Part shown: positions 3,807 to 35,754 of the stretch, piece after piece | How the letters are laid out: the number at the start of each line of letters is the position of its first letter | How positions within the stretch are numbered: the first letter of the stretch is position 1 | Notes under the pieces: generated by a model | What the model was told of the DNA's origin: nothing | The model's input: only the letters and a program-made list of their open reading frames with translations | Databases searched by the model: none | Origin: Planobispora longispora | GTDB lineage: Bacteria > Actinomycetota > Actinomycetes > Streptosporangiales > Streptosporangiaceae | Length of the DNA stretch: 64,000 nt | NCBI RefSeq assembly: GCF_016863135.1 | Contig: NZ_BOOH01000001.1 | Span: 1 to 64,000, forward strand | Reading direction: 5' to 3' | Made by a program: the position numbers and the translations under genes

Positions 3807-3890
3807 TCAGCGGACGGGCAGGCCGGTGACGGCGCGGCCGATGATGAGGCGCTGGATCTCGGAGGTGCCCTCGAAGATGGTGTAGTTCAT
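3807..3890 (-). pseudogene. Orphan 3' end of an acyl-CoA dehydrogenase gene (candidate att-site remnant)
   Basis: Read on the minus strand, this 28-codon open piece ends TIFEGTSEIQRLIIGRAV then TGLPVR and a TGA stop. It is the C-terminal signature of an acyl-CoA dehydrogenase, with the catalytic-type Glu in FEGTS. Positions 3823-3885 are identical over 63 bp to 52228-52290, the 3' end of the complete acyl-CoA dehydrogenase gene in this window. Beyond that block the last 16 bp to the stop are similar but diverged (GLPVR versus GLQVR), and there is no similarity past the stop. The remainder of the gene is absent. It looks like the displaced native 3' end left when DNA inserted into the gene. 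Confidence 0.85.
3823..3885. repeat. Left copy of 63-bp direct repeat bounding the catabolic island (putative attL)
   Basis: Exact 63-bp match, same orientation, to 52228-52290; the copies are 48,405 bp apart. It lies in the coding 3' end of an acyl-CoA dehydrogenase gene. Site-specific elements that insert at the 3' end of a gene and rebuild it leave this signature. No integrase is visible near either copy. Confidence 0.75.
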
Positions 3891-4177
3891 CGATCCACCC
3901 CTGCTCACCTGCGACAACACAGCGATTAGCACTCTGACCAGCGTTTCCGCCTTCGATCGCCGCCCATCGATATGCAGCGTCTTTCACCCTCTGGCGGAAC
4001 AGCGACGGAATGGAAAGCAACGACGATCTCCGTTCTGGATCCACAGAGGCGGTTACGTAGCGTGATAGTCGGCTACGCTCCACGCGGATCCCCGAGACTT
4101 CAGTCTCGCCAGTCACGGTCGCCAAGGTGTTCAGCGCAACTTGAGTGCACAAGCACTATCGGTACCGCAGCTCTCTC
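3891..4177. other. Gene-free junction segment inside the left island end
   Basis: No gene is recognised here. The base composition is visibly less G/C-biased than the surroundings, and no frame shows the usual G/C-ending codon pattern. It contains a 14-bp palindrome (GAGACT-TC-AGTCTC, 4094-4107) and an AGCGT/ACGCT inverted repeat near 4059-4078. It may be recombination debris or sites for a lost integrase. Confidence 0.4.
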
Positions 4178-4225
4178 AACTTTCGCGCACAAGTGCTTGC
4201 ACGCGAAAGTTAGTTCGCCTACGGT
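4178..4225 (+). promoter_or_regulatory. LacI-type operator over the promoter of the crotonase/CoA-transferase/amidohydrolase operon
   Basis: A 34-bp palindrome at 4178-4211 has perfect 10-bp outer arms (AACTTTCGCG / CGCGAAAGTT) and an inner CAAG/CTTG pair. The right half contains a -35 box TTGCAC (4197-4202). Exactly 17 bp on is a -10 TACGGT (4220-4225). The same layout recurs at 11715-11761 and 24596-24643. The operator would block RNA polymerase at the -35 box. Confidence 0.8.
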
Positions 4226-4284
4226 TGGAGCCTCATCGCCCGTCCGCATCGACGGAACGAGCGACGCGGGAGGAGAGGGTATCT

Positions 4285-4386
4285 CTGATCATCTGGACCC
4301 CAAAGCGCCATGGCCGCGCGCGCCCGCTATGGAAGACCCTCGCCCCCGAGGTCGTCATCGGTCTGGCCCCCTTCGAATCCACCTGA
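4285..4386 (+). other. Possible small leader ORF or displaced 5' coding segment
   Basis: Between a strong ribosome-binding sequence (GGGAGGAGAG near 4268) and the crotonase ATG, the frame from a CTG at 4285 to the TGA at 4384 has strongly G/C-ending codons. It would encode about 33 residues including WTPKRHGRARPLWKTLAP. No ATG/GTG/TTG follows the predicted transcription start, so a CTG or ATC start would be needed. Alternatively it is a small regulatory peptide or a frameshifted former N-terminus. I do not recognise the peptide. Confidence 0.35.
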
Positions 4387-4391
4387 GCGGC

Positions 4392-5414
4392 ATGGCAGCC
4401 GTGCTTGCGGTGAAGGAACTCTTCGACCGGCTCAACGTCTCGCCGCTCATCACCACCGAGCCGTGGTTGGCGGTGGACCTGTCCACCGTCCCGCCTGCCG
4501 CCGTGGACGAGGCGGCGATGACACTACTGGCCGAACGCACGCAGGTGATCATTGGAGTGCTTCCCGAGGCTCCTACCGAAGCGGCGGTGTCGCTGGCACG
4601 TGCCTGCACCGTGACGCTCTCCGCCCAGCCGTTGGCCGAGCGGCAGATCGTGGCCGTTCATGACATCACCACCGCGCTCCGAGCGCTGACGACCGCAGTA
4701 CACGCAAGCCCAGTCGCAGCCATCAGCTTGAGCCGGCTCCTCCGCCTGCAATCCCGGTTACCCGTCCGGGACGCACTCGTGGCCGAGTCCGCCCTCTACT
4801 CAGTCCTGCTCGCGGGCGGAGAGTTCACCAGCTGGCTGGAGAGCAGGAGGGGCCGCCGGCCGCAGGAGACGGCCGATCCGGTCGAGGTGAAGCTCGAGAC
4901 GCGCACGCTGCGCATCACGCTTTCCCGCCCGGCCCGGCGCAACGCCTTCAACGCCGCCATGCGGGAGGCACTGTGCGATGCGCTGGCGGTAGCGGCCGGA
5001 GATCCATCGCTCCGCGTGGAGCTGCGCGGCGGCGGGCCGGACTTCTGCGCGGGCGGCGACCTGGACGAGTTCGGCACGAGCCTGGATCCCGCCTCGGCTC
5101 ATCTCCTCCGTACGGCCCGCTCGGCAGGGCTCGCGCTGCATCGAGTCGCCGATCGCACCACCGCCTACCTTCAGGGCAACTGCATCGGCGCCGGAATCGA
5201 GCTTCCCGCCTTCGCCGGGCGGGTCGTGGCCCGGCCCGATGTGCGCATCCGGCTGCCCGAACTGAGCATGGGGCTCATCCCCGGCGCTGGCGGCACCGTG
5301 AGCCTGACGCGCCGCATCGGCCCGTGGCGTACCGCCTGGCTGGCTCTGACGGGGGCAACCCTCACCGCCTCCGAAGCCCTCGGCTGGGGTCTGGTGGACG
5401 AGGTGCGGCCATGA
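4392..5414 (+). CDS. Enoyl-CoA hydratase/isomerase (crotonase) family protein with rotated domain order
   Basis: 340 residues. The crotonase core runs from about residue 164 to the end, with oxyanion-hole segments RNAFNAAM and FCAGGDLDEF (about 218-227), then GNCIGAGIELP and GLIPGAGGT. It stops right after the usual ALGWGLVDEV element, so the C-terminal helical region of a normal crotonase is missing. Residues about 85-155, before the core, instead resemble that helical tail (ALVAESALYSVLLAGGEF, then WLESRR). The order looks circularly permuted, which is an inference. By family it hydrates or isomerises an enoyl-CoA. First gene of a three-gene operon under a LacI-type operator; the next gene overlaps by ATGA. 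ATG 4392 is the best start, with ATG 4329 as an alternative. Confidence 0.75.
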   Translation: MAAVLAVKELFDRLNVSPLITTEPWLAVDLSTVPPAAVDEAAMTLLAERTQVIIGVLPEAPTEAAVSLARACTVTLSAQPLAERQIVAVHDITTALRALTTAVHASPVAAISLSRLLRLQSRLPVRDALVAESALYSVLLAGGEFTSWLESRRGRRPQETADPVEVKLETRTLRITLSRPARRNAFNAAMREALCDALAVAAGDPSLRVELRGGGPDFCAGGDLDEFGTSLDPASAHLLRTARSAGLALHRVADRTTAYLQGNCIGAGIELPAFAGRVVARPDVRIRLPELSMGLIPGAGGTVSLTRRIGPWRTAWLALTGATLTASEALGWGLVDEVRP

Positions 5415-6502
5415 CGTCCGCCTGGGTCTCGTCGGGGCTGGCCGCGCTGAGCGGGCGCGCAAGCGGCCCGCCGCTCGACCCCGGGCACCGTACGGCGGAA
5501 GCCGCCGCGGAGTGGGGAGACCTGCTGGGCGTGGACGGCACCGTCCTGCTCACCGAACGAGCAGCCCTCACCGGGCGCACGCGCGGCGGCAGGATCTCCG
5601 TCGGTGGTTCATGCCGCCTGCTGGACACCCACGACGGATGGGTGGCGCTCTCCTGCGCCCGCCCCGACGATCCCGACCTTATCACCGCCCTGATCGGCGA
5701 GCCGATGAGCTGGGACAGGCTGGCCCGGTGGTGCCGGGGCCGCGGCGCGGCCGAGGTGAGCGAGCGCGCCCGGCTGCTGGGACTCGCGGCGGCGAGTGTG
5801 GGTGAATGGTCCCGGCCCTCTGCGCCACCGGCTCGGGTGCGGGTTCCCGACCTGCGTCACGTGCTCGTCGTCGACTTCAGCGCGCTGTGGGCCGGGCCGC
5901 TCTGCGCCCACCTGCTGGGCCTGGCGGGGGCACGGGTCGTGAAGGTCGAGACCCCGGGACGGCCGGACGGCGCACGATCCGGCCATCGGGGCTTCTTCGA
6001 TCTGCTCCACGCCGGGCACCGGTCCGTCGTGCTGGAGCCGCACGACCCCGCCCTGCACGCGCTGGTCGAGGCGGCCGACGTCGTCATCGAGGCTTCCCGT
6101 CCCCGGGCGCTGGCCCGGTGGGGCCTGGACGCCGAGGTCGCGGCGGCGTCGGGGACCGTGTGGCTGTCCATCACCGCCTATGGCCGCGATCACGACCGGG
6201 TGGGTTTCGGTGACGATGTGGCCGCCGCGGCAGGCCTGGTGGCCTGGGATGGTGACACCGGAGAGCCGCTGTTCTGCGGTGACGCCATCGCCGATCCGCT
6301 CACCGGCCTGTACGCCGCCTGCCGCGTGGTGGCGAGCCTGGAAGCAAGCGGCGGTGAGCTGCTGGACGTCGCCATGGCGGCGGTCGCGGCGAGCACGGTC
6401 TCCGGGCGGTCTCCGGCCAAGCCGGTCCAGCACGCTCCGGGCCCCCGATCCCGGGTGGTTCCCACCGCCGCCGGATCGGGACACGGCGGCAATGCGGGCT
6501 GA
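5411..6502 (+). CDS. CaiB/BaiF-type (family III) CoA-transferase, atypical architecture
   Basis: 363 residues. From about residue 148 the N-terminal Rossmann part of a family III CoA-transferase is clear (LVVDFSALWAGPLCAHLLGL, then ARVVKVETP). It continues through ADVVIEASRPRAL to DAIADPLTGLYAA near residue 295, where I place the candidate catalytic aspartate region. Residues 60-135 (GGSCRLLDTHDGWVALSCAR onward) resemble the small domain that normally comes last, so the order again appears rotated, as in the upstream gene. It would move CoA between acyl-CoA and free acid. The start overlaps the crotonase stop (ATGA), indicating translational coupling. Family membership is secure; substrate unknown. 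Confidence 0.8.
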   Translation: MTSAWVSSGLAALSGRASGPPLDPGHRTAEAAAEWGDLLGVDGTVLLTERAALTGRTRGGRISVGGSCRLLDTHDGWVALSCARPDDPDLITALIGEPMSWDRLARWCRGRGAAEVSERARLLGLAAASVGEWSRPSAPPARVRVPDLRHVLVVDFSALWAGPLCAHLLGLAGARVVKVETPGRPDGARSGHRGFFDLLHAGHRSVVLEPHDPALHALVEAADVVIEASRPRALARWGLDAEVAAASGTVWLSITAYGRDHDRVGFGDDVAAAAGLVAWDGDTGEPLFCGDAIADPLTGLYAACRVVASLEASGGELLDVAMAAVAASTVSGRSPAKPVQHAPGPRSRVVPTAAGSGHGGNAG

Positions 6503-6510
6503 CCTGGACC

Positions 6511-7782
6511 ATGCTGATCCGTGACGTCGAGGTCCGCGGGCGACGGACCGATGTACGGCTGGCCGCCGGACGAGTCGGCGAGATCGGCTCGCTGAGCCCT
6601 CGTCTCCGGGAGGAAGTGCTGGACGGAGGTGGCGGCGTCCTGCTGCCCGGCCTGACCGATCACCACGTCCACCTGCATGCCTGGGCGGCGGCCATGAGCT
6701 CGGTGACATGCGGTCCGCCTGCCGTACGGAACGAACAAGACCTGCGCGAGGTGCTGGCACGGGCGGTGCCTGATGCGGCGGGATGGATCCGGGGCGTCGG
6801 CTGCACGTGGTCGCTGGACGCTGGGGCGCTGGACCAGCTGCATCCTCATCGCCCAGTACGGCTGCAGCATCGCGGTGGCTCCCTGTGGATGCTCAACACA
6901 GTCGCGATCAAGCTGCTGGGGCTGGATCACCAGGATGACCCGAGCATCGAGAAAGCAGCGGACGGCTCCCCCACCGGACGGCTCTGGCGAGGCGACCACC
7001 TGCTCGGCAGGCTCCGGCGTCCGCCCGACCTGAGCCCTGTCGCCGCCATGCTGGCACGCTGGGGCATCACGGCCGTCACCGACGCGACCCCCGGACTGGA
7101 CGAGGTCAGCGTCCTTCAGCGAGTCCTGCTCTTGGGCTCCTCCCGAGGAAGCGCGCCCAGGAAGATCGTCATCCGCGACGACGCGCTCCCCAGTCTCGGT
7201 GATCTCATCGCGGACATCGCCGCCGCCCACGCCAACCGGCGGCCCGTCGCCATGCACTGCCTGACCACGGAGGCGCTGCTGCTGGCCCTGGCCGCGCTCG
7301 ACGAGGCCGGCTCGCTCGACGGTGATCGGCTGGAACACGCCGCCGTCGTGCCCGCCTGGGGCATCGAACGCATCCACGCGCACGGGTTGCGCGTGGTGAC
7401 CCAGCCGGGTTTCCTGGCCGATCGCGGCGAGGAGATGGCCCGCGACACGGCACCCGGTGACCTGTACCGCTATGGCAGCCTGCTCAAGGCAGGAGTGATG
7501 ACCGTGCCGTCCAGCGACGCCCCGTACGGACCGGCCGATCCGTGGCAGGTGATGGCCGCCGCCCGCGACCGGGTCATCGGCCGCCGGGAGCGGGTGAGCG
7601 TCCGGGTTGCGCTGGACGGCTATCTCACCCCCGGACACCTGCCCCGATCAGGGCCGGCGGAGGTACGGCCCGGCGCGGCCGGTGATCTGGTGCTCCTGGA
7701 GGATTCTCTGCGGGACCTCCTTGAGGAGCCGGACGCCGGGCGGGTCCGCAACACGATCATCGGTGGCCGGATCGTCTACTGA
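6511..7782 (+). CDS. Metal-dependent amidohydrolase, YtcJ-like
   Basis: 423 residues of the amidohydrolase superfamily (cytoplasmic TIM barrel, hydrolysing C-N or C-O bonds). The metal-binding HxH motif is in GLTDHHVHLH near residue 50. Later ligands are likely in AMHCLTTEA, DRLEHAAVV and the C-terminal aspartate of SSDAPYGPADPW. C-terminal strands (AGDLVLLE, then IIGGRIVY) rebuild the usual beta-sandwich. It is the last gene of the LacI-operator operon, 8 nt after the CoA-transferase. Its final codons overlap by 7 nt with the oppositely oriented rhamnosidase gene, with no terminator between them. It may open a lactone, lactam or cyclic intermediate of aglycone breakdown. Confidence 0.82.
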   Translation: MLIRDVEVRGRRTDVRLAAGRVGEIGSLSPRLREEVLDGGGGVLLPGLTDHHVHLHAWAAAMSSVTCGPPAVRNEQDLREVLARAVPDAAGWIRGVGCTWSLDAGALDQLHPHRPVRLQHRGGSLWMLNTVAIKLLGLDHQDDPSIEKAADGSPTGRLWRGDHLLGRLRRPPDLSPVAAMLARWGITAVTDATPGLDEVSVLQRVLLLGSSRGSAPRKIVIRDDALPSLGDLIADIAAAHANRRPVAMHCLTTEALLLALAALDEAGSLDGDRLEHAAVVPAWGIERIHAHGLRVVTQPGFLADRGEEMARDTAPGDLYRYGSLLKAGVMTVPSSDAPYGPADPWQVMAAARDRVIGRRERVSVRVALDGYLTPGHLPRSGPAEVRPGAAGDLVLLEDSLRDLLEEPDAGRVRNTIIGGRIVY

Positions 7783-10187
7783 CTCGCCGACAGTGCGCTC
7801 TCCAGGTCGCTCTTCAGTTCCTCCGACGAGCCTGGGATCAGGTCGACGATCAGGTTGAGGGTGTACGTGGCCGCCTCGGGGGCGGTGCCGTCGAGGGGAA
7901 TGCCGGGGAAGTGCTTGGCGAACACCTCCGTCAGTGCCCGCCACACCGTCAGGTCGCTGGCGAGCGTCTTCAGCGGAGTGTCCATCGTGTACGGCTCGCG
8001 CGAGCCGTACACGGGAGGCAGTGCACACGTGTAGGAGTGGCTGCCGCCGCCCACTTCGGCGCTCTGGCCGTCGGGCAGTTCGACCAGGGCGCAAGTGCCA
8101 TCGGGGATGGTCACATCGAGGGTGAACCGGTCGGTGATGCGCCAGTTGATGCGAACCTCCCCGTGGACGGTCGAGCGGGTGAGGGTGGCGTGGGTGAGGC
8201 CGCCACCGGGCTCGGGGGCGATGCGCATGCGCCGGTAGCCGGGTTCGAGGGAGGTCAGGCCGCCGACGGTCTTGTGCAGCCAGTCGCAGACCGCGCCCAG
8301 AGCGTAGTGGTTGAGCGAGGTCATGCCGGTGGAGTTAAGCGTGCCGTCGGGACGGACGGCGTCCCAGCGTTCCCAGATCGTGGTGGCGCCCATGGTGATC
8401 GGGTACAGGAAGGAGGGACAGCCGGTCTCCAGAAGCAGGAGATACGCCTCCTCCAGGTGACCGGTCCTGCTGAGCGCCGGCAGGATGAGCGGGGTTCCCG
8501 CGAAGCCGGTCGAGATATTGAATCCGGCCCTGGCGACCAGCGCGGCCAGGCGCTGGCCGGCGTGCACCTCTTGCCCGGGGTCCAGCAGATCGAAGCAGAT
8601 GGCCAGCGCGTAGGCGGTGGCGGTCTCTCCTGCGACCCGCCCGTTGTTGGTCACATATTCGGCCCGGAAGGCTTCTCGCACCTTATCGGCCAACGCCCGG
8701 AAATGGTCGGATTCATGGCCGAGGATGTGGGCGGTGTCAGCCATCTCGCGGGTGGTCTTGGCCAGGTAGGCGGTGGCCACCAGATGCCGGTCGGTCTTAC
8801 CGCCTCCGGCGTTGTCCGGAGGCGCGTCGGGGTCGAGCCAGTCGCCGAACTGGAAGCCGCTGCTCCACAGCCCGTCCTCGTCGAGCCGGGTCTCGACGTC
8901 GCGGATGAAGGCGGCCATGGAGTCGTAACAGCGCCTGAGGATCTCCTCGTCGCCGTATTCCTGGTACAGGAGCCACGGCAGGCTGACCGCCACGTCACTC
9001 CAGAGCGCGGTGGGGGCAGAGGGGGTGGACAGGATGTCCGGCACCACCCAGGGGACGTAGCCCTTCTCGCGCTGCTCGGCGGCGAGGTCTTCCAGCCAGG
9101 AGCCGAGAATGCCGCGCACGTCGTACAGGAAGGCGGCGGTGGGGGCGAAGGCGTTGAGGTCGCCGGTCCAGCCCAGGCGCTCGTCGCGTTGCGGGCAGTC
9201 GGTGGGCACGCCGACGAAGTTGCCGCGCATCGACCAGACGGTGTTCGCATGCAGGCGGTTGAGCAGGTCGTGAGAGGTGTCGAACCAGCCGGTGCGGCGC
9301 ATGTCGCTGTGCACCACCACCGCTCTGACCTCGTCGAAGGGGCCGTCGATCTCGGCGTAGCGGAAGCCGTGGACGGTGAAGCGCGGCTCCCAGACCTCCT
9401 GGCCGCCGCCGCGCAGGGTGTAGCGATCGGTGGAGCGGGCTGTGCGCAGGGTCTCGGTGTCGAGTGCGCCGTCCCGCAGGATCTCCGCGTGCCGGATCCT
9501 CACGCTCTGCCCGGCCTCGCCGGTGACGGCGAGCCGTACCCAGCCGGAGATGTTCTGCCCGAAGTCGACGATCGTCTTGCCGCCCTCGACGACGGTCGCC
9601 ACCGGGGTCAGCTCTTCGATCCGGCGGATCGGGGTGTCCATCGTGGGCACCAAGGTCCGCAGATCCCAGTCCAAGGGCTCCACCGGCGACCAGACACCGG
9701 TGAAACCGGGCAGATTCCAGCCGTCCGGCTCGAGCCGCGCGTCGTAGGTCTCGCCGTCGTACAGGCCCGCGGCCAGCACGGCACCGGTGCCCGCCGTCCA
9801 CTGTTCGTCGGTGACGACGATCTCGCTTTGCTCTCCGTACGTGAGCTCCAGCCGCATGTACAAGGCGGGCCGCCGGGTGTAGTGGTGCCGCTTGCCCTCG
9901 TAGCCCAGGCGCCCGGCTGCCCAGCCCTCGCCGACGATCGCGCCCAGGGCGTTGGCGCCCGAGCGAATCAGATGGGTGACGTCATACGTGCTGACCTGAA
10001 TCCGATGCCGATAGGAGGTCCATCCAGGCGCCAGCACCTCATCGCCCACCCGGGCGCCGTTCAGGTACGGCTCGACGATGCCCAGGGCGGTCACCTGGAG
10101 CCGGGCACGGTCAGGCGGCGCGTCAGAGGTGAACTCGCGGCGGAAGTAGGGCGCCTCGGCAGGGAACGACGCGGTGACGAACGACAT
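7776..10187 (-). CDS. GH78 alpha-L-rhamnosidase
   Basis: 803 residues, no signal peptide, so probably cytoplasmic. Two N-terminal beta-sandwich domains (FRREFTSDAPPDRARLQVTA, then LNGARVGDE) precede an (alpha/alpha)6 barrel. The barrel has the GH78 general-acid motif DCPQRDERLGWTGD near residue 330 and the general-base motif TIWERWD near 615. It removes terminal alpha-L-rhamnose from plant glycosides. After the C-terminal beta domain is an extra helical tail of about 65 residues that I do not recognise. ATG 10187 has GAGGAGC upstream. It is 13 nt downstream of the GH43 gene in one operon driven from the operator at 11730. Confidence 0.95.
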   Translation of the reverse strand: MSFVTASFPAEAPYFRREFTSDAPPDRARLQVTALGIVEPYLNGARVGDEVLAPGWTSYRHRIQVSTYDVTHLIRSGANALGAIVGEGWAAGRLGYEGKRHHYTRRPALYMRLELTYGEQSEIVVTDEQWTAGTGAVLAAGLYDGETYDARLEPDGWNLPGFTGVWSPVEPLDWDLRTLVPTMDTPIRRIEELTPVATVVEGGKTIVDFGQNISGWVRLAVTGEAGQSVRIRHAEILRDGALDTETLRTARSTDRYTLRGGGQEVWEPRFTVHGFRYAEIDGPFDEVRAVVVHSDMRRTGWFDTSHDLLNRLHANTVWSMRGNFVGVPTDCPQRDERLGWTGDLNAFAPTAAFLYDVRGILGSWLEDLAAEQREKGYVPWVVPDILSTPSAPTALWSDVAVSLPWLLYQEYGDEEILRRCYDSMAAFIRDVETRLDEDGLWSSGFQFGDWLDPDAPPDNAGGGKTDRHLVATAYLAKTTREMADTAHILGHESDHFRALADKVREAFRAEYVTNNGRVAGETATAYALAICFDLLDPGQEVHAGQRLAALVARAGFNISTGFAGTPLILPALSRTGHLEEAYLLLLETGCPSFLYPITMGATTIWERWDAVRPDGTLNSTGMTSLNHYALGAVCDWLHKTVGGLTSLEPGYRRMRIAPEPGGGLTHATLTRSTVHGEVRINWRITDRFTLDVTIPDGTCALVELPDGQSAEVGGGSHSYTCALPPVYGSREPYTMDTPLKTLASDLTVWRALTEVFAKHFPGIPLDGTAPEAATYTLNLIVDLIPGSSEELKSDLESALSASQ

Positions 10188-10200
10188 GAAGGCAAGCTCC

Positions 10201-11676
10201 TCAGCGGGCAGGGTGGGTGCGGTAGGAGACCTGGCGAACCACGGCTTCGCCGGCGATCGGCTCGACGCCGAACGTGCGGCCGGTGAAGCCGCCGGCCACC
10301 TCCGTCGACAGATAGCGTCCGTCGAACGCGCCGAGAACCTGGGGCGCGCCGTCGGCGGCGAGGACGGCCAGTTCCACGATGTCGGGCTCCGGCGGCGGCA
10401 TGGGACCGGACGCGACAGGCTCTCGAACCGAGATGCGCAGCCTCACACCGTCGCCCGGCGGAATCGGCACCCGCGCGGCGATCGTGCTCGCAGGTCCGAT
10501 GACCACAGTCGCCTCCACTGTCTCGGCGTCGGCCGTCAGCCCGTACCAGTGGGAACCGTCGAGCCGGACGAGGAAGCACCCGGTCCCCCCGGTGGTGTCG
10601 AGCTCGACCTCCGCCGTCCACTCGAGGTCTCGTGCCCGCGTTGACAACACATGCCTCGGCTCGCCCAGGGCGGGTGCTGTCAGCACCAGGCGGCCGGGCG
10701 CCCCACGCCTGGCGAACGTGTGCGGGAACACGTTGGGCGACATCCAGCGCGGGTCGAGGTCCAGGGAGTCGAACCGATCGACGAACGAGTGGTCCGGCGG
10801 GCTGGGGGCGAAGCGTTCCTCATCGACCACAGGCCAGTCGTCGACCCAGTCGACGCCCGCGATGAACGTCTCACGGCCGTTGACATGGAACATCGGGCTC
10901 TGGCCACGGGGACGCACCCCGAGATACACCATCGCCCAGGAGCCGTCGGCCAGCTGGACCAGGTCGGCATGGCCGGTGTTCTGCACGCGATGGCTTGAGC
11001 TGCGATGAGTGAAGATCGGATTGGTGGGCGCCGCCTCGAAAGGCCCGTGAAATGAGCGGGAACGCGCGATGGTGACCGCGTGCCCCCGCTCCGTGCCGCC
11101 TTCCGCGAGCATGAGGTACCACCAGCCGTCGCGCCGGTAAAGGTGAGGGCCCTCCGGAAAGGCCAGCCCCGTCCCGTTCCAGAGCAACCGTGGCGGAGCG
11201 AGCATCTTGCCCGTCGCGGGATCGATCGGTGCGCTGGCGATGCCGGTCAGCTCGGGCGCGGCCGACACCCAGGTGAGGTGGCACGTCCCGTCCTCGTCCC
11301 AGACCAGGTCGGGATCGATCCCGATAGCGCCGTCCACATGGACCGCCTCGGACCATGGGCCCGCGGGGTCGTCGGCCGAGACGATCAGCTGACCACGATG
11401 GAACTCCACCACGTTCGTCGTGACAAGCCAGAACTTCTCCCCGTGGTAGCGGAGCGTCGGTGCGTACACCCCCGTGCTCTCCGGGGCGGCATGGACGTCC
11501 AGCTGGTCGGGACGTTGCAGCGCGTTGGTCACCAACGTCCAGGTCACCAGGTCAGTGCTGCGGTGGATCGGCACCCCTGGCGCGAACTCGAAGCTGGAGT
11601 TGGCGATGTAGTAGATGTCTCCCACCCGGCAGATGGTCGGGTCGGGGTGGAACCCGGCGATGATGGGTGTCGTCAT
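10201..11676 (-). CDS. GH43 beta-xylosidase / alpha-L-arabinofuranosidase
   Basis: 491 residues, cytoplasmic. The five-bladed GH43 propeller has its base aspartate in AGFHPDPTIC (about residue 12), the pKa-modulating aspartate in GIDPDLVWD (about 120) and the acid glutamate in AFPEGPHLY (about 183). A C-terminal beta-sandwich (from about 300, DRFDSLDLDPRWMSPN) is typical of the GH43 subfamily that removes xylose or arabinose from oligosaccharides and glycosides. First gene of a two-gene operon with the GH78 rhamnosidase. GAGGAG lies 8 nt before ATG 11676. Specificity between xylose and arabinose cannot be fixed from sequence. Confidence 0.92.
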   Translation of the reverse strand: MTTPIIAGFHPDPTICRVGDIYYIANSSFEFAPGVPIHRSTDLVTWTLVTNALQRPDQLDVHAAPESTGVYAPTLRYHGEKFWLVTTNVVEFHRGQLIVSADDPAGPWSEAVHVDGAIGIDPDLVWDEDGTCHLTWVSAAPELTGIASAPIDPATGKMLAPPRLLWNGTGLAFPEGPHLYRRDGWWYLMLAEGGTERGHAVTIARSRSFHGPFEAAPTNPIFTHRSSSHRVQNTGHADLVQLADGSWAMVYLGVRPRGQSPMFHVNGRETFIAGVDWVDDWPVVDEERFAPSPPDHSFVDRFDSLDLDPRWMSPNVFPHTFARRGAPGRLVLTAPALGEPRHVLSTRARDLEWTAEVELDTTGGTGCFLVRLDGSHWYGLTADAETVEATVVIGPASTIAARVPIPPGDGVRLRISVREPVASGPMPPPEPDIVELAVLAADGAPQVLGAFDGRYLSTEVAGGFTGRTFGVEPIAGEAVVRQVSYRTHPAR

Positions 11677-11714: not shown

Positions 11715-11761
11715 ACTGTAGACACCATCACTTTCGCGCGCAAGTACTTGTGCGCGAAAGT
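11715..11761 (-). promoter_or_regulatory. LacI-type operator and promoter of the GH43-GH78 operon
   Basis: A 32-bp near-perfect palindrome (11730-11761, one mismatched pair) is built from CTTTCGCGCGCAAG and its inverse copy. On the minus strand -35 TTGCGC (11738-11743), 17 bp, and -10 TACAGT (11715-11720) give the same geometry as the sites at 4178 and 24596. Transcription would start about 30 nt upstream of the GH43 start codon. The stretch 11762-11939 holds no gene. Confidence 0.85.
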
Positions 11762-11939
11762 TCCGGAAGCTGCGATAACGGCAAGTTTGTAGTCGGAAGT
11801 GACGAATCCCCTGGAGCGGCCAGGATGACCTGTCCAAGCCACAGCCAGCCGGCGGCGTCGGCGAGGCCGGCGGCCTGCGCCGCCGTACCCGCCCCTACAC
11901 GCCGTACTCAGCGGCTGGAAGGTGCCGCGATTCTCCGAC

Positions 11940-13106
11940 TCAGATCTTGTTGGCCTTCGCGACGGCGCCGAGCCAGCTCAGGCTGGGCTTGGGTTGGCGT
12001 GCGAAGGTCTGGTGATCGACGGCTACGAGCCCGAAGGTGGGTTCCCAGCGGCCCCATTCATAGTTGTCGAGAAGACTCCAGTGCAGGTATCCGCGGACGT
12101 CGATGCCCTCCTCGATGGCATCTCGGAGGTGACCGAGAGCCGCTCGGGTGTAAGCGATTCGGCGTTCGTCATCGTCGGTGGCGAGGCCGTTCTCGGTGAT
12201 GAGGATGGGCACGTCGCCCACGACCTCGCGGGTGTGGCGTACGGCGATGCCGATGGCGTCAGGCCGGTACGCCCACCCCATCAGGGTGTTGTCGGGATGG
12301 TCAGGATGCGGCCGGATTCCGTGCTCGTCGACGACCTGGCTCGTGTAGGTCTGGACGCCGACGAAGTCGTCATGACGGGCGGGTTCGAGGTACATGTCCT
12401 CCCAGATCCACTGCACCTCGGCCAGCTTGGCCTCGCCGCCCGGGGCCGCCTGGAACGCCTGGTTGCCGATCGTCCAGCCGACCTTGGCCCCTACCCGGTC
12501 ACGGATCAGCGGCGCGACTGTCTTGTGTGCGCCGACCAGGGCGGCGCCGATCTCCTCGTCGGGCAACATGCCAGGGGGGAACTCCTGGCCCGCGCCGACT
12601 CGCCGGGCGCCGTGCATGAGCGCCACGACGTTGGGCTCGTTGAAGGTGCAGACCCACTCCACACCGTCGAGAATTGAACAGACCTGTTCGGCATAGCGCG
12701 CGAACAGATCGGTCGCGTCGGCGGCTAGCCAACCTCCTGCTTCGCCGAACCAGGCCGGGTGCGTGAAGTGATGCAGCGTGACGATCGGTGTCAGGCCCAA
12801 CCCGCGAGCGGTGTCGATCATCCGCCGATAGTGGGCGAGCAGAGCCCGGGAGAAGTGTCCGCGCGCGGGTTCGATCCTGGCCCACTCGATGCCGAACCGG
12901 TAGGCGTTGAACCCGGCCTGCGCGAGCAGGCGCATGTCTTCCTCGAAGCGGTGGTAGCTGTCGAGCGCGTCGCCGCTGGGTTGCATGCCGGGCCGGGAGT
13001 GTTCGAGCTGCCACCAGTCGCTGTTGACGTTGTTTCCCTCGATCTGGTGGGCTGCGGTCGAGGCTCCCCACAGGAAATCGGCTGGGAACGGACGCGGCGT
13101 GTGCAT
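11940..13106 (-). CDS. GH1 beta-glucosidase (first paralogue)
   Basis: 388 residues, cytoplasmic TIM barrel, short for GH1 (usually about 450). The N-terminal FLWGASTAAHQIEG signature, acid/base glutamate in CTFNEPN (about residue 160) and nucleophile in LITENGLA (about 300) are all present, with YLHWSLLDNYEWGRW near the end. It hydrolyses beta-glucosides or related glycosides. It ends the operon that begins with the sugar-binding lipoprotein at 16320, 47 nt after the last permease, with a small inverted repeat between. It closely resembles the second GH1 at 18632-19804, pointing to duplication within the island. Confidence 0.95.
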   Translation of the reverse strand: MHTPRPFPADFLWGASTAAHQIEGNNVNSDWWQLEHSRPGMQPSGDALDSYHRFEEDMRLLAQAGFNAYRFGIEWARIEPARGHFSRALLAHYRRMIDTARGLGLTPIVTLHHFTHPAWFGEAGGWLAADATDLFARYAEQVCSILDGVEWVCTFNEPNVVALMHGARRVGAGQEFPPGMLPDEEIGAALVGAHKTVAPLIRDRVGAKVGWTIGNQAFQAAPGGEAKLAEVQWIWEDMYLEPARHDDFVGVQTYTSQVVDEHGIRPHPDHPDNTLMGWAYRPDAIGIAVRHTREVVGDVPILITENGLATDDDERRIAYTRAALGHLRDAIEEGIDVRGYLHWSLLDNYEWGRWEPTFGLVAVDHQTFARQPKPSLSWLGAVAKANKI

Positions 13107-18631: not shown

Positions 18632-19804
18632 TCAGATGGCGTTGGCGCGGGCGATGCCGCCGAGCCACGCGAGGCTCGGCTTGGGCCGGCGTTCGAAGGT
18701 CTCCCGGTCCACGGCGATGAGGCCGAAGGTGGGCTCCCACCGCCCCCACTCGAAGTTGTCCAGCAGGCTCCAGTGCAGGTAGCCGCGGACGTCGATGCCG
18801 TCGTCCATCGCATCCCGCAGGTGCCTCAGGGCTTCCTCGGTGTAGGCGATGCGCCGCCGGTCGTCAGGGGTGGCGATGCCGTTCTCGGTGACGACGATCG
18901 GCACGTTCCCCACGACCTCGCGGGTATGGCGTACGGCGATGCCGAGCGCGTCCGGGCGGTAGGCCCATCCCATCAGTGTGTTGTCGGGGTGGGGCGGATG
19001 CGGGACGACGCCCTTCTCGTCGATGGGCTGGCTGGTGTAGGACTGCACGCCGACGAAGTCGTCGTCTCGGGCCGCTTCGAGATACATGTCCTCCCAGATG
19101 TGCTGCACCTCGGCATACTTCTCCTCCGCACCAGGCGTCATGACAAACGCTTGATTGGCGACGGTCCAGCCCACCTTCGCCCCCGTGGCCCCTCGCACGA
19201 GCGGAGCAGCCGCACGATGCGCCGCGATCAACGACTCTCCGATCTCGGCATCGGGCAGCGCCCCCACCAACTGGTACTCCTCGCCACGGGCGACGCGGCG
19301 GAGCTGACCGTGGTTGACCGCGACGACGTTCGGTTCGTTGATGGTGCACACCCACTCGACGCCGTCGAGGATCGTGCAGGCCTGCTCCACGTAGCGCGCA
19401 AAAGCCTCGACCGCGCCTTCGCCGAGCCAGGCCCCCTTGTCGCCGAACCAGATCGGGTGCGTGAAGTGGTGCAGAGTGACCACCGGGGTGACGCCCAGAC
19501 CCAGTGCGGTGTCGATCATGCGGCGGTAGTGGGCGAGTTCCGCTCGCGAGAACTTGCCGGGACTGGGCTCGATGCGGGACCACTCCAGGCTGAAGCGGTA
19601 GGCGGTGAGGCCCGCTCCGGCCAGCAGCCGCATGTCCTCCTCGTAGCGGTGGTAGCTGTCCAGGGCATCGCCGCTGAACTGCACGCCGTGGTCGGCGGCG
19701 ACGTGTTCGAGCTGCCACCAGTCGTTGTTGAGGTTGTTGCCCTCGACCTGGTGCGCGGCGGTGGCGGCGCCCCACAGGAAGCCGTCGGGGAAGGGGCGGG
19801 TCAT
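18632..19804 (-). CDS. GH1 beta-glucosidase (second paralogue)
   Basis: 390 residues, cytoplasmic, closely similar throughout to the GH1 at 11940-13106. It has FLWGAATAAHQVEG at the start, the acid/base glutamate in CTINEPN (about 162), the nucleophile in VVTENGIA (about 302) and LHWSLLDNFEWGRW. Last gene of the MFS-SDR-GH3-GH1 operon; ATG 19804 overlaps the GH3 stop (ATGA), so the two are made together. Retaining two paralogues in separately controlled operons suggests different inducers or substrates. Confidence 0.95.
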   Translation of the reverse strand: MTRPFPDGFLWGAATAAHQVEGNNLNNDWWQLEHVAADHGVQFSGDALDSYHRYEEDMRLLAGAGLTAYRFSLEWSRIEPSPGKFSRAELAHYRRMIDTALGLGVTPVVTLHHFTHPIWFGDKGAWLGEGAVEAFARYVEQACTILDGVEWVCTINEPNVVAVNHGQLRRVARGEEYQLVGALPDAEIGESLIAAHRAAAPLVRGATGAKVGWTVANQAFVMTPGAEEKYAEVQHIWEDMYLEAARDDDFVGVQSYTSQPIDEKGVVPHPPHPDNTLMGWAYRPDALGIAVRHTREVVGNVPIVVTENGIATPDDRRRIAYTEEALRHLRDAMDDGIDVRGYLHWSLLDNFEWGRWEPTFGLIAVDRETFERRPKPSLAWLGGIARANAI

Positions 19805-24499: not shown

Positions 24500-24556
24500 C
24501 GCGGGGACTCTCTACTCGTCCAGGTGGGTGCGGGATCACTCCCACGCTTCGCACTG

Positions 24557-24643
24557 CTTTCGCGCGCAAGCTGTTGGACGTACGGTAGCTACGTCAACTT
24601 TCGCGCACAAGTACTTGCGCGCGAAAGTTAGTCTGCCTACAGT
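24557..24643. promoter_or_regulatory. Bidirectional promoter with shared LacI-type double operator plus a single operator
   Basis: The 34-bp palindrome at 24596-24629 (one mismatched pair) supplies a -35 to both sides. Rightward: TTGCGC (24615-24620), 17 bp, TACAGT (24638-24643), driving GH3-GH2. Leftward: TTGTGC (complement of 24605-24610), 17 bp, TACCGT (complement of 24582-24587), driving the MFS-SDR-GH3-GH1 operon. A lone 14-bp operator CTTTCGCGCGCAAG (24557-24570) lies just past the leftward start point and could act as a roadblock. One repressor could thus silence six genes. Confidence 0.85.
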
Positions 24644-24715: not shown

Positions 24716-26917
24716 ATGCCCTCGATCGATATCGGCTCCCTGTCGCTGGAGCAGAAGGCTTCCCTGTTGTCGGGGGCGGACATGTGGTCGACGCGCCCCC
24801 TGCCGGAGGCCGGGCTGCGGCCGGTCATGCTCTACGACGGGCCGCACGGGCTGCGCCACCTGGAAGACCGGTCGGACACCGCCGACATCTACGGCAGCGC
24901 TCCGGCGACGTGTTTTCCCCCGGCGGTCGCGGTCGGCGCGAGCTGGGACCCGGAGGTGGCGGCCCAGGTCGGCGCCGCGCTCGGCCGTGAGGCCAGGGCG
25001 CTGGGCGTGCATGTGGTGCTCGGGCCCGGGGTGAACATCAAGCGCTCGCCGCTGTGCGGCCGCAACTTCGAGTACTACTCGGAGGACCCGCTGCTGTCCG
25101 GCGTGCTCGGCTCCGCCCATGTACGCGGCGTGCAGGCCGAGGGTCCGGGGGCGTCGGTCAAGCACTTCGCGGCCAACAACCAGGAGACCGAGCGGACCCG
25201 GATCAGCGCCGACATCGACGAGCGGACGCTGCGGGAGATCTACCTGCCCGCCTTCGAGCGGGTCGTGACCGAGGCCCGCCCGGTGACGGTGATGGCGGCC
25301 TACAACAAGGTCAACGGCGTGTACGCGGCACAGAGTCCCTGGCTGCTCACCGAGGTGCTGCGCCAGGAGTGGGGCTTCACCGGTGCCGTGATCTCCGACT
25401 GGGGGGCGGTCCACGACCGGGTGGCCGCGCTCGCGGCGGGTCTGGACCTGGAGATGCCCGGCGGCGACGGCACGGGCGTGGCCCGGATCGTCGCCGCGGT
25501 GCGGGCGGGTGCGCTGGACGAGGCGCTGGTGGACCAGGCGGTCGCGCGGATCGTCGCGCTGGCCGAGCGGGTCGCCCCGGCGACCGGCGACCTGGACGTG
25601 GACGGCGGCCACGCCCTGGCGCGGAAGCTGGCGGCCGAGTGCGTGGTGCTGCTGAAGAATGACGCCCAGGTGCTCCCGCTGGAAGGGGTCACCCGCCTGG
25701 CAGTGATCGGTGCGTTCGCGACCGCGCCGCGTTTCCAGGGCGGCGGCAGCTCGCGGGTCAACCCCACGCGGGTCGACACCGCGCTGGACGCGATCCGGCA
25801 GCACACCGCTGAGCGCGGCCAGACGGTGACGTACGCCCAGACGGCGGAGGAAGCCGCATCTGCCGAGGTGGCTGTGGTCTTCGCCGGGCTGGGTGACCAT
25901 GAAGAGTCGGAGGGCTACGACCGGGAGAGCATCGACCTGCCCGCCGATCAGATCGCCCTGATCCGCGCCGTGGCTCAGGCCGCTCCCCGCACGGTCGTGG
26001 TGCTGTCCCACGGCGGCGTGGTGTCCCTGGAAGACTGGCACGACGACGTGGACGCCATCCTCGACGGCGGGCTGCTCGGCCAGGCAGGCGGCGGCGCGCT
26101 CGCCGACGTCCTGTTCGGGGTCGTCAACCCGTCCGGGCGGCTGGCGGAGACGATCCCGCTACGCCTGCAGGACAACCCCAGCTACCTCAACTTCCCCGGG
26201 GAAGCGGGCCACGTCCGCTACGGCGAGGGCGTCATGGTCGGATACCGCTACTACACCAGCGCGGAACGGGCGGTCCGCTACCCGTTCGGGCACGGCCTGT
26301 CCTACACCACCTTCGACACCGGCGACCTGACCGTGACGCCGACCGGCGAGGACACCGCACGCGCGGCGGTCACCGTGACCAACACCGGCACCCGGTACGG
26401 CAAGCACGTCGTGCAGGTCTACGTCGCCACCACCGCGGGCAAGGTCCGCCGCCCCGCCCGCGAGCTGCGCGCCTTCACCAAGGTCGCCCTGGAGCCCGGC
26501 GAGTCCCGCACGGTCACCTTCGACCTGGACCGCAGGGCGTTCGCCTACTACGACATCACCCGGTCCGGCTGGGTGGTCGCACCCGGCGAGTACCGCGTCC
26601 AGATCGGCGCCGACGCCCACCACGTCCTGGACGAGGCGGCGATCACCCTCACCGGCGACAAGGGCCTGATGCCGCTGACCCTGGAGTCCACCGTCGGCGA
26701 CTGGCTCGATCACCCGATCGCAGGGCCGGCGCTGGTGAAGAAGATGAACGACCGCCTGCGGGACCTGTCCCCCGAGGAGGCCGCGTTGGCCGCGCAACAC
26801 CCCGACGGCCTGCGCATGGCCGCCGCATTGCCGATGAGCAAACTCATCACCTTCACCGGCGACACCTTCCCCGCCGACTTCCTGGACAAGCTGATCCGCG
26901 AGAGCAGGGTCGTATGA
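24716..26917 (+). CDS. GH3 beta-glucosidase (second GH3)
   Basis: 733 residues, cytoplasmic. Start region MPSIDIGSLSLEQKASLLSG. The GH3 barrel has KHFAANNQETERTR and the nucleophile in AVISDWGAVHDR (about residue 225). A sandwich domain with GLGDHEESEGYDRES (family acid/base region) and a fibronectin-III domain (RYGKHVVQVYVATTAGKVRR) follow. The last 70 residues (GDWLDHPIAGPALVKKM) match the extension in the first GH3. Expressed rightward from the 24596 operator; the stop overlaps the GH2 start (ATGA). Confidence 0.95.
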   Translation: MPSIDIGSLSLEQKASLLSGADMWSTRPLPEAGLRPVMLYDGPHGLRHLEDRSDTADIYGSAPATCFPPAVAVGASWDPEVAAQVGAALGREARALGVHVVLGPGVNIKRSPLCGRNFEYYSEDPLLSGVLGSAHVRGVQAEGPGASVKHFAANNQETERTRISADIDERTLREIYLPAFERVVTEARPVTVMAAYNKVNGVYAAQSPWLLTEVLRQEWGFTGAVISDWGAVHDRVAALAAGLDLEMPGGDGTGVARIVAAVRAGALDEALVDQAVARIVALAERVAPATGDLDVDGGHALARKLAAECVVLLKNDAQVLPLEGVTRLAVIGAFATAPRFQGGGSSRVNPTRVDTALDAIRQHTAERGQTVTYAQTAEEAASAEVAVVFAGLGDHEESEGYDRESIDLPADQIALIRAVAQAAPRTVVVLSHGGVVSLEDWHDDVDAILDGGLLGQAGGGALADVLFGVVNPSGRLAETIPLRLQDNPSYLNFPGEAGHVRYGEGVMVGYRYYTSAERAVRYPFGHGLSYTTFDTGDLTVTPTGEDTARAAVTVTNTGTRYGKHVVQVYVATTAGKVRRPARELRAFTKVALEPGESRTVTFDLDRRAFAYYDITRSGWVVAPGEYRVQIGADAHHVLDEAAITLTGDKGLMPLTLESTVGDWLDHPIAGPALVKKMNDRLRDLSPEEAALAAQHPDGLRMAAALPMSKLITFTGDTFPADFLDKLIRESRVV

Positions 26918-29790
26918 ACCGCCTGCCCATGCACTCGCTGCGTCGCGCGCCCGAAGTCGACCTCGACGGCACGTGGGAGTTCCGGCTCCTGCCGTACCAG
27001 GAGGAGTGGAAGAGCGTCCAGGTGCCCGACCTGTGGACGATGCGGGAGAAGGACGACCCGCCGCACTACCTGAACGTCGCGATGCCGTTCGAGGAGGTGC
27101 CGCCCACCGTCCCCGCGCACAATCCGACCGGCCAGTACCGCCGGACCGTGGAGCTGGCAGCGCAACCGGGACGCCGGACGATCCTGCACGTCGGCGCGGC
27201 CGAGGGCCACCTGAACGTCATCGTCAACGACCAGGCCGTCGGCGACAGCACGGACTCGCATCTGGCGGCCGAGTTCGACATCACCGAGGCCGTGACCTCG
27301 GGCGTCAACACGATCGAGCTCACGGTCGCCAAGTGGTCGGCGGCCACCTACCTGGAAGACCAGGACCACTGGTGGCAATCGGGCCTGTCCCGGTCGGTGT
27401 TCCTGTACACGGTGCCGGAGGTGCGGCTGGGTGACGTGGCCGTGGTGACGGACTACGCGGACGGTCGCGGCAGCCTGAACGTGACCGTTTCCACCATCGG
27501 GCTGGATCACCTTCACGAGGTCGGATGGTCGGCGCGGATCGGCGTGCTGGGCCGTACGGAGAGCCGCCTGATCGCTCCGCGAGTCGTCGAGCCCGCTTTC
27601 CCCGACTCGACAGTCGATCGGTCCACCCGTCCGGAGCCGGTCGGCATTCCCGACGGCGTGATGAATCTGCTCAGCCTGCATGCCGCCGGCGCGCCGATCG
27701 TCGGCGAACTGCGGCCGATCGCCGACATCATGACGGTACGGCCTGGCAAGGCGGGCAGCGCGGTGTTCGCCCTCGACGTGCTCGACGTCGCCCCCTGGAC
27801 GGCGGAGACGCCGCACCTGGAGGACCTCCTGGTCGAGCTGGTCTCCCCGGAGGGCGAGGTCGCGGATGCGGCGAACTTCAGGATCGGCTTCCGGCGGGTC
27901 CGGATCGAGGGCCGGGACCTGCTGGTCAACGGCGAACGCGTGCTCATCCAGGGCGTCAACCGGCACGACGTGAACCCCCGCACCGGCCGCGTCATCACCC
28001 GCGATCAGATGCTGGCCGAGCTGTCCCTGCTCAAGAGGTTCAACGTCAACGCGATCCGCACCTCGCACTATCCCAACGATCCGGTCTTCCTCGACCTGTG
28101 CGACGAGATCGGCTTCTACGTCGTGGACGAGGCCGACATCGAGGGGCACGCCTTCACCACCACCCTCGCCCACGACCCGCGCTACCTGTCGGAGTTCGTC
28201 GAGCGGGTCTCCCGGATGGTGCTGCGGGACCGCAACCACCCCTCGGTGATCATCTGGTCGCTCGGCAACGAGACCGGCTACGGTCCCAACCACGACGCCG
28301 CCGCCGCGTGGGTGCGCCGGGTGGATCCAGGCCGTCCGCTGCACTACGAGGGCGCCATCGCGCACGACTGGCACGGCGGCCACGCGGCGAGTGACCTGGT
28401 CTGCCCGATGTACCCCTCCTTCGAGGCCCTCACCGCGTTCTCGGCCGACCCGCGCGCAGATCGGCCGGTGATCCTGTGCGAGTACGCCTACTCGCAGGGG
28501 AACTCGACGGGCGGCCTGGCTCACTACTGGGAACTGTTCGAGAGCCTGCCCGGCCTGCAGGGCGGCTTCATCTGGGAGTTCAAGGACCATGCCCTCGACC
28601 CGGACGGCGACGGCCGCTATCGCTACGGCGGCGACTTCGGCGACGAGCCCAACGACGGCACCACGCTCCTCAACGGCGTGGTCTTCACCGACCTCACGCC
28701 GAAACCGGCGCTGTACGAGGCGCGTGGCCTGTTCAGCCCGATCCGCGTGTCCATGGACGGCGGCAGGCTGCGGATCCGCAACCGGCAGAGCTTCGCCGAT
28801 CTCAGCGCCTACGACCTGAACCTGCGGGTGGAGACCGAGGCCGGGCCGGTGGGCGCTCTCACGCTCCCCGCGCCGCGGGTGGCCGCGGGCGAGGAGGTCA
28901 CAATCGACCTGCCCGGTTCCATCGTGGCGCTGCTCGGCACCGCGCTCGCGCTCACGGTGAGCCTGCGCACCCGCGAGGACGCCCTCTGGGCCCCCGCCGG
29001 AACGGAGATCGCCGCACACCAGATCACCTTCCCGCGCCCGCTGCCGCAGCTCCCCAGGGCTTCCACCGGTGGGGAAGTCCGTCATCCGCTGCTGCGGCGC
29101 GTGCCCCGGCTGTGCCTGTGGCGGGCGCTGACCGACAACGACGGCTCCTTCATGCTGGACCACCGGTTCGTCCGCTCCGGCTTCTTCCGGATCACCCCCG
29201 TGGACGTCGATGGAGCCATCACCCGCTACGCCACGGCCTACGGTGACGAGGTCGTCCACACCCGGACCGTCACCCGGGTCGGCGAGGGCGACTACGTGCT
29301 CGACGAGCACGTAGTGCTGCCTTCCGGCGAGGCTCTGCGGGTGGGCATGGAGTTCGAGCTCGCCGACGGCTTCGACCACGCCCGCTGGGTCGGGCTCGGC
29401 CCGTGGGAGAACTACCCGGACCGGCGGTCCTCCGCCCTGCTCGGCGCCTGGGAGAACCGCATCGACGACCTCTCCGTGCCGTACCTGAAACCGCAGGAGA
29501 ACGGCGGCCGCGGCGAGGTCACCGAGCTCGTGCTGTCCGGGCCCGCCGGGACGGTGCGGACGACTCACGCCACACCGCTGCACATGACCGTGAGCCGCCA
29601 CACGATCGAGGAACTGGAGACGGCGACGCACTGGTGGGAGCTTCCGCCCTCCGCCAGGACCGTCGTCCACCTCGACATCGCACAGCGCGGCGTCGGCACA
29701 GCCATGTTGGGGCCGGACACCCGGCCCGCGTATCGTCTCACCGAGCGTGAGTACGCCTGGCAGTGGCGGCTGACACTCACCAGCCCGTGA
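26914..29790 (+). CDS. GH2 beta-galactosidase-like glycosidase (LacZ type)
   Basis: 958 residues with the full LacZ layout: jelly-roll sugar-binding domain (DLDGTWEFRLLP), two Ig-like domains, TIM barrel, and C-terminal super-sandwich (LGPWENYPDRRSSA). The acid/base glutamate is in IIWSLGNETGYG (about residue 456) and the nucleophile in VILCEYAYSQGNS (about 525). The nucleophile context is CEYAYSQGN rather than the common CEYAHAMGN. It hydrolyses beta-galactosides or related beta-glycosides. ATGA overlap with GH3; followed by the lacI gene. Confidence 0.93.
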   Translation: MNRLPMHSLRRAPEVDLDGTWEFRLLPYQEEWKSVQVPDLWTMREKDDPPHYLNVAMPFEEVPPTVPAHNPTGQYRRTVELAAQPGRRTILHVGAAEGHLNVIVNDQAVGDSTDSHLAAEFDITEAVTSGVNTIELTVAKWSAATYLEDQDHWWQSGLSRSVFLYTVPEVRLGDVAVVTDYADGRGSLNVTVSTIGLDHLHEVGWSARIGVLGRTESRLIAPRVVEPAFPDSTVDRSTRPEPVGIPDGVMNLLSLHAAGAPIVGELRPIADIMTVRPGKAGSAVFALDVLDVAPWTAETPHLEDLLVELVSPEGEVADAANFRIGFRRVRIEGRDLLVNGERVLIQGVNRHDVNPRTGRVITRDQMLAELSLLKRFNVNAIRTSHYPNDPVFLDLCDEIGFYVVDEADIEGHAFTTTLAHDPRYLSEFVERVSRMVLRDRNHPSVIIWSLGNETGYGPNHDAAAAWVRRVDPGRPLHYEGAIAHDWHGGHAASDLVCPMYPSFEALTAFSADPRADRPVILCEYAYSQGNSTGGLAHYWELFESLPGLQGGFIWEFKDHALDPDGDGRYRYGGDFGDEPNDGTTLLNGVVFTDLTPKPALYEARGLFSPIRVSMDGGRLRIRNRQSFADLSAYDLNLRVETEAGPVGALTLPAPRVAAGEEVTIDLPGSIVALLGTALALTVSLRTREDALWAPAGTEIAAHQITFPRPLPQLPRASTGGEVRHPLLRRVPRLCLWRALTDNDGSFMLDHRFVRSGFFRITPVDVDGAITRYATAYGDEVVHTRTVTRVGEGDYVLDEHVVLPSGEALRVGMEFELADGFDHARWVGLGPWENYPDRRSSALLGAWENRIDDLSVPYLKPQENGGRGEVTELVLSGPAGTVRTTHATPLHMTVSRHTIEELETATHWWELPPSARTVVHLDIAQRGVGTAMLGPDTRPAYRLTEREYAWQWRLTLTSP

Positions 29791-29795: not shown

Positions 29796-29825
29796 TGGTA
29801 CGGCTTGCGCGTGCAAGCTGTACCA
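29796..29825. promoter_or_regulatory. LacI-type operator upstream of the lacI-family gene
   Basis: A 30-bp palindrome (outer TGGTAC/GTACCA, core CTTGCGCGTGCAAG at 29804-29817) lies just ahead of the regulator's ribosome site. The core matches the 14-bp element CTTTCGCGCGCAAG of the other operators at 12 of 14 positions and is centred on CG, as LacI-family sites usually are. This supports autoregulation and identifies the likely regulator of those sites. Confidence 0.75.
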
Positions 29826-29843
29826 TCCCCGGAGGGAAGCTGC

Positions 29844-32295: not shown

Positions 32296-32298
32296 GGG

Positions 32299-35709: not shown

Positions 35710-35754
35710 GGTGGTCTCCTCAGTGGGTGGTCGGCACTTGGATCCCGGCGGGCT

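Follow-up and report, generated by a model that had tools for sequence, protein, structure and literature searches.

The window analyzed here is a 64,000-nucleotide stretch of the Planobispora longispora genome (contig NZ_BOOH01000001.1, positions 1 to 64,000), in which an operon at 4392–7782 encodes a crotonase-family protein, a family III coenzyme A (CoA)-transferase and an amidohydrolase. This trio is probably an arm of a CoA-dependent catabolic pathway that was brought under a LacI-controlled glycosidase regulon by promoter capture, which would allow deglycosylation and aglycone breakdown to proceed jointly. The sequence features that carry this reading are the operator sites, the geometry of their promoters, the co-occurrence of LacI and the sites across genomes, a lacI remnant upstream of the trio, the conservation of the trio and the recurrence of a glycosidase core beside CoA genes. 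In the proposed mechanism, the trio would form one arm of the pathway and genes at about 30.8–54 kb the other. A rearrangement probably left the lacI fragment upstream of the trio and gave it a glycosidase-type divergent promoter. The LacI encoded at 29805 would bind a 34-bp site overlapping the −35 box and so block the promoter, acting by repression rather than activation. Sugar released by the glycosidases would be the inducer that lifts repression, and removal of the sugar and part of aglycone breakdown would thereby start together, the two halves of the system presumably acting on one molecule.

Double operators and promoters

The 34-bp palindrome AACTTTCGCG-N14-CGCGAAAGTT occurs exactly at 4178–4211 and 24596–24629 (both forward strand) and with one end mismatch at 11729–11762 (reverse strand). 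The site at 4178–4211, recovered by both pattern and half-site searches, has the form of a double LacI-type operator made up of two near-palindromic 16-mers. Every double site in the window carries TTGCAC or TTGCGC within the palindrome, followed after 17 bp by TACGGT or TACAGT; at the first site, these are a −35 box TTGCAC at 4197–4202 and a −10 box TACGGT at 4220–4225 (predicted promoter 4197–4225, forward strand). The three promoters, assigned by box layout, point toward the crotonase gene, the GH43–GH78 genes (glycoside hydrolase families, GH) and the GH3–GH2–LacI genes, respectively. The initial annotation had claimed that the trio shares its operator–promoter module with the GH43–GH78 and GH3–GH2 operons, and the common −35/N17/−10 layout at all three sites bears this out. 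In the opposite direction, the −10 box at 24596 is TACCGT, giving TACxGT boxes toward both GH3 and a divergent major facilitator superfamily (MFS) transporter gene, and a single 16-mer operator half found by half-site search lies upstream of the same MFS gene at 24556–24571. The corresponding boxes at 4178 and 11729 are TGCGGT and TGCGAT, respectively, and neither side has an annotated facing gene. At six double sites of related genomes, TACxGT was found at 17 bp in both directions in four.

The operator 10-mer, allowing up to one mismatch, matched the window eight times against a mean of 2.05 in shuffled sequences, and none of 100 shuffles reached eight. When the whole genome (8,843,645 bases, 120 contigs) was searched with the pattern ACTTTCGCG-N10..14-CGCGAAAGT, matches were seen at 4178, 11729 and 24596 only, and a reversed-pattern control gave none. 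With a half-site 15-mer and up to two mismatches allowed, 10 matches were obtained on either strand (controls, 3 forward and 7 reverse); eight matches had at most one mismatch, seven of them inside the window. The eighth, at C1:131090, stands alone elsewhere in the genome as an operator half-site with a single mismatch (G000:C1:131090–131104).

The probable LacI regulator and its co-occurrence with the operators

The last gene of the GH3–GH2 operon (29805–30839, forward strand) encodes a LacI-family protein with a helix-turn-helix domain (PF00356) and a ligand-binding domain (PF13377), and is the proposed repressor at all three operators on the basis of domain scans and co-occurrence. For LacI and dehydratase counts, 341 genomes of the family were surveyed, with six candidates scored per genome. 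LacI matches at E 1e-70 or better were present in 13 genomes; identity reached 70% in six (P. longispora itself, G319, G374, G031, G247 and G278) and 68% in G019. The double-operator pattern, allowing up to three mismatches, was found in seven genomes, namely the same six and, as a weak three-mismatch match, G368. This co-occurrence gave a Fisher p of 3.4e-12 (1.6e-10 without the P. longispora genome), to be read with the 70% line having been set after the list was seen and with the genomes being related rather than independent. Apart from 4178, the double sites of the six genomes all lie in glycosidase, transporter or LacI regions, and G019 has two single-type half-sites at 14/16 near its glycosidases. 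LacI regulons are recognized by a promoter palindrome whose presence across genomes goes with that of the regulator, and LacI 29805 is very probably the regulator of the three double operators, as judged from these comparisons.

In LacI-family sugar regulons, a regulator with LacI and Peripla_BP_3 domains is encoded in a glycosidase operon, and its palindromic site overlaps the promoter. The window has the same type of regulator, operon setting and promoter-overlapping palindrome; it differs in the doubling of the site to 34 bp and in having a CoA operon among the predicted targets.

Origin of the promoter upstream of the trio

Between the 4178 operator and the crotonase gene lies a lacI gene remnant (approximately 4282–4371, forward strand), identified by tblastn, shuffling and a DNA match. 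Its frame reads SLIIWTPKRHGRARPLWKTLAPEVVIGLAP and then continues to a TGA stop at 4384–4386. In a tblastn search of the window with its LacI, only LacI itself ranked above the remnant (E 7e-6; next match 0.009). The remnant has a protein score of 74 against a shuffle maximum of 43, and its DNA matched the lacI gene of G150 (65 bp, 77% identical, E 1.9e-6). Five other LacIs outscored the window's own on the remnant (L125, 98; L072, 95; L127, 92; L128, 90; L126, 89), which suggests that it came from another lacI subgroup; with scores of 89–98 against 74, simple duplication of the window lacI gene is not favored as its source. A second mark of rearrangement is found further upstream, where an 82-bp shard of the 3′ end of an acyl-CoA dehydrogenase gene (3807–3888) is 94% identical to 52212–52293. 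The promoter region itself (4160–4242) is 79–82% identical over 81–84 bp to the GH2 promoters of G031, G374, G247 and G278. A lacI gene appears to have once followed the 4178 promoter.

In G319, the closest relative found, the gene order is cytochrome P450, dehydratase, FadD, crotonase and then sugar ATP-binding cassette (ABC) transporter genes; a search of this 57-kb contig showed no operator half at 13/16 or better. Because a lacI remnant lies at the junction here and the G319 crotonase gene follows FadD without an operator, the trio appears to have come under its glycosidase-type promoter by capture. This bears on the use that the initial annotation made of the shared operator, as an argument for a glycoside substrate; the argument is weak, since the 4178 promoter looks captured, with a lacI remnant behind it, and since the trio is found elsewhere without glycosidases (below). 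Against the 24596 copy, the 4178 operator differs at 2 of 34 positions and its flanks at 12 of 42 (Fisher p 0.016), and this better conservation of the operator suggests that the site is still in use.

Two further observations concern the remnant and the shard. At G031:C17:173648 and 204615, a lacI paralogue of the remnant-like kind lies about 31 kb from the crotonase gene of that genome. The shard is also 98% identical to a stretch of a genome of the same genus, G002.

Integrity of the trio genes

Profile scans agreed with the gene identities given in the initial annotation. The crotonase-family protein (4392–5414, forward strand; 340 amino acids with an N-terminal extension of about 150) gave a partial ECH_1 match, the short-form family III CoA-transferase (5411–6502, forward strand) matched CoA_transf_3, and the metal-dependent hydrolase (6511–7782, forward strand) matched Amidohydro_3. 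The crotonase was scanned in a frame taken from 3972; position 4392 is a plausible start, and homology to the best relative, the G319 crotonase, begins by eye at about GTG 4401. All three reading frames are open. The crotonase covers positions 7–175 of 251 in ECH_1, and its relatives stop at the same place; the CoA-transferase covers 1–210 of 366 in CoA_transf_3, and its relatives cover 1–204 (G319), 3–215 (G031) and 1–204 (G019). Fresh truncation of the trio genes was rejected, as the short forms are common to relatives. Among the matches listed for ten proteins in NCBIfam (for the crotonase, the best 25 of 69), none reached a curated cut-off.

Crotonase residues E270 and E290, which we take to be the catalytic glutamates, were invariant in all 13 rows of an alignment of the window protein with 12 relatives (L016 and some others left out), and the structure 4jyl_D was matched with a Z score of 23.1 and a root-mean-square deviation of 2.1 over 178 residues. 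In the CoA-transferase, D295 aligns with Asp169 of Frc, as counted by hand, and was invariant in 16 of 16 rows. Both enzymes therefore keep their presumed catalytic residues. The ratio of nonsynonymous to synonymous substitution rates (dN/dS) relative to G319 was 0.28 for the crotonase and 0.27 for FadD; with equal values for the two, no sign of decay was seen in the crotonase. The G+C content at third codon positions (GC3) of the trio (0.83–0.86) is at the lower end among genes of the window.

Glycosidase cores beside CoA genes

The glycosidases of the window belong to families GH78, GH43, GH1 (two genes), GH10, GH3 (two genes) and GH2. By profile scan, a GH78 α-L-rhamnosidase is encoded at 7776–10187 and GH43 at 10201–11676, both on the reverse strand, and the GH3 and GH2 genes lie at 24716–29790 on the forward strand. 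Adjoining LacI, a CoA-dependent catabolic cluster at 30844–49592 was assigned by profile scans, and the larger cluster extends from LacI to about 54 kb. Its genes encode an AMP-binding ligase, a dehydratase-like protein, a P450, SMP-30, acyl-CoA dehydrogenases, two large CoA-transferases, a luciferase-like oxygenase, an amidohydrolase, a thiolase-like protein and a short-chain dehydrogenase/reductase (SDR). This larger cluster, the lacI fragment and the acyl-CoA dehydrogenase shard go beyond the initial annotation, as do the LacI assignment and the finding that the glycosidase core recurs with different CoA genes, described next.

On contig C33 of G031, a member of another genus, relatives (53–69% identical) of FadD, the dehydratase, P450, SMP-30, acyl-CoA dehydrogenase and CoA-transferase adjoin a GH78/GH43/LacI/GH2 core (75–86%). 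G319, from a further genus, has the glycosidase core and orthologous CoA genes on two separate contigs. Linkage of the two is likely there, because the CoA contig terminates in the sugar ABC genes that sit inside the glycosidase region of the window. In G247, G278 and G374, a different CoA-transferase lies within about 4–12 kb of the same core; it is 88–97% identical among the three and about 31% identical to the large CoA-transferases of the window. Oxidoreductases of the short-chain and flavin types are among its neighbors, joined in G247 and G278 by a crotonase and by an SMP-30 that is 49% identical to that of the window; the CoA sets are thus not wholly unrelated. By chance, a family III CoA-transferase match would fall within 25 kb of the core with a probability of about 0.05–0.18 per genome; the genomes behind this figure are related, and some double-domain proteins were counted twice. 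The dehydratase was found in 5 of the 341 genomes, three of which also have a LacI of at least 68% identity (hypergeometric p 5e-5; 0.0015 without the P. longispora genome).

From these comparisons, a broader proposal can be put forward tentatively, as possible rather than probable: the LacI-controlled glycosidase core may be a portable front end that was joined at least two times within the family to largely different CoA-dependent aglycone pathways, and in P. longispora the CoA genes would have been wired into the sugar regulon by promoter capture, with sugar gating breakdown of the non-sugar part.

In G247, GH78 is followed on its own strand by a 154-amino acid frame and an SDR gene (L146:14405–15647, G247:C16), and the LacI-type promoter of its GH2–LacI–GH43–GH78 genes might run on into the oxidoreductase genes.

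Distribution of the trio and alternative explanations

A profile built from the crotonase and its relatives (13 sequences) was used to search a collection of named genomes, and the surroundings (up to 10 kb per side, less on some shorter contigs) of the best 80 of 446 confirmed loci were examined. A CoA-transferase homologue was present at 61 of the 80, an amidohydrolase at 55, the complete trio at 52 and FadD at 35. Judged by their titles, the hosts included numerous actinobacteria, along with some metagenome genomes of proteobacterial and myxococcal type. None of the 80 loci had a homologue of the window GH78, GH43, GH1, GH10, GH3 or GH2 genes, none had an operator half at 14/16 or better, and 16 crotonase loci of further relatives likewise had no homologue of the window glycosidases. 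The trio is a widespread module that is not specific to glycosides, on this sequence evidence. In G341, where the order is crotonase, CoA-transferase and amidohydrolase, the trio is about 22–25 kb from the dehydratase, and one operator half at 13/16 lies 6.4 kb before the crotonase (G319 and G341 comparisons were made with matches of at least 40% identity only). In Nocardia cerradoensis (L178), relatives of the P450, the dehydratase and the trio are found together.

The proposal of the initial annotation, a glycoside whose non-sugar part is also consumed, stands in part. The shared operator and promoter, the nearby LacI and the core recurring beside CoA genes favor it; the trio, not being glycoside-specific, does not. 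The recurrence of glycosidase cores with CoA genes is better support for such a substrate than the shared operator.

Several findings weigh against joint control of the trio and the glycosidases. No other trio locus examined had an operator half at 14/16 or better, and control of the trio in P. longispora could be accidental. Relatives of the CoA genes are present in G149, G341 and Nocardia cerradoensis, and in G149 and G341 no LacI was found at the threshold used. The double site of G319 has a spacing of 17 bp in one direction and 18 bp in the other, and that at G031:C33:55063 has no TACxGT at 17 bp. In G019, LacI and the nearest family III CoA-transferase match are about 94 kb apart. Inspection by eye showed no good ribosome-binding site ahead of 4392, and the remnant, being apparently nearer another lacI subgroup, would have a history other than simple duplication.

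The strongest alternative is that capture was neutral, the trio having landed behind the operator by chance and being regulated by LacI while acting on a compound unrelated to glycosides. In its favor, the lacI remnant and the dehydrogenase shard mark a rearranged junction, the 80 named loci lack window glycosidases and operator halves although 52 hold the complete trio, and only one of nine double operators (G368 match left out) precedes a CoA operon. We nevertheless regard neutral capture as unlikely, given that the operator has changed less than its flanks, that two other genera have CoA genes including FadD next to the glycosidase core or in the same genome, and that other CoA genes lie near the core in three more genomes. 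That the operator is a relic, with the 4178 promoter serving only the dead lacI and the trio silent or expressed from elsewhere, would agree with a leader of about 160 nucleotides containing the lacI fragment, the unclear ribosome-binding site, the degenerate opposite-direction −10 box and the low GC3, but is very improbable in view of the promoter layout shared with the other two sites, the constraint on the operator, the crotonase dN/dS equal to that of FadD, the open frames and the presumed catalytic residues kept in two of the enzymes.

Substrate and comparison with known systems

Under the preferred reading, in which the captured promoter couples the trio to the glycosidases, a saponin-like (terpenoid or steroid) glycoside would fit as the substrate by analogy. 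Nakayasu et al. give the ginsenosidase families as GH1, 2, 3, 10, 39, 42, 51 and 78 (PMC10653915), and GH1, 2, 3, 10 and 78 are present in the window. For the GH10, a tomatinase-type role may be considered. The parts of that account consulted describe one bacterium, Sphingobium sp. RC1, in which saponin deglycosylation and aglycone breakdown occur together (PMC10653915). As in the window, its glycosidase genes, including GH3 and GH78, are clustered, and the aglycone is degraded as well; a feature of RC1 is one steroid dehydrogenase gene near the glycosidase genes (PMC10653915). One difference is that RC1 reportedly relies on orthologues of known steroid-ring enzymes, for which no search was made in the window; another is that the same parts of the account mention neither a LacI operator nor such a trio (PMC10653915).

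Contig C33 of G031 offers a closer likeness, with GH78, GH43, LacI, GH2 and GH3 side by side with FadD, dehydratase, P450, SMP-30 and CoA-transferase genes; its crotonase trio differs in lying on another contig, where no operator was found. A literature search covering titles and the openings of abstracts, with subscription journals mostly outside its reach, found no description of such a regulon.

Glycosidase genes are usually read as a sign of sugar scavenging. If the preferred reading is correct, a regulator that drives CoA genes too, with a visible scar of their recruitment, would let ideas on the growth of catabolic regulons be tested and make it easier to recognize bacteria that consume plant glycosides whole. 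For a direct binding and induction test, the regulator, the site and the targets are now defined.

Additional observations

By eye, crotonase residues of about 72–162 (window 4605–4877) resemble the C-terminal helices that the protein lacks, which would imply a circularly permuted family. Weak matches (i-Evalues 13 and 83) linked the N-terminal part of the 13-row profile to the C-terminal part of two crotonase structures, and the N-terminal part used alone found no crotonase, its matches being chance-like (e.g. keratin). Of 13 N-terminal pieces, 3 passed the inclusion threshold with an ordinary-crotonase profile, one of these matching a different region of it; profile–profile comparison gave a probability of 0.5 on a scale of 0–100, and structural alignment covered residues 157–340 at most, with the N-terminal part outside it. 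In the CoA-transferase, which is short at its C terminus, residues 60–135 resemble by eye the family's C-terminal small domain, moved to the front.

The two GH1 genes (11940–13094 and 18632–19798) are about 75% identical at the DNA level, and a DegT/DnrJ/EryC1-type aminotransferase is encoded at 41491–42699, inside the CoA catabolic cluster.

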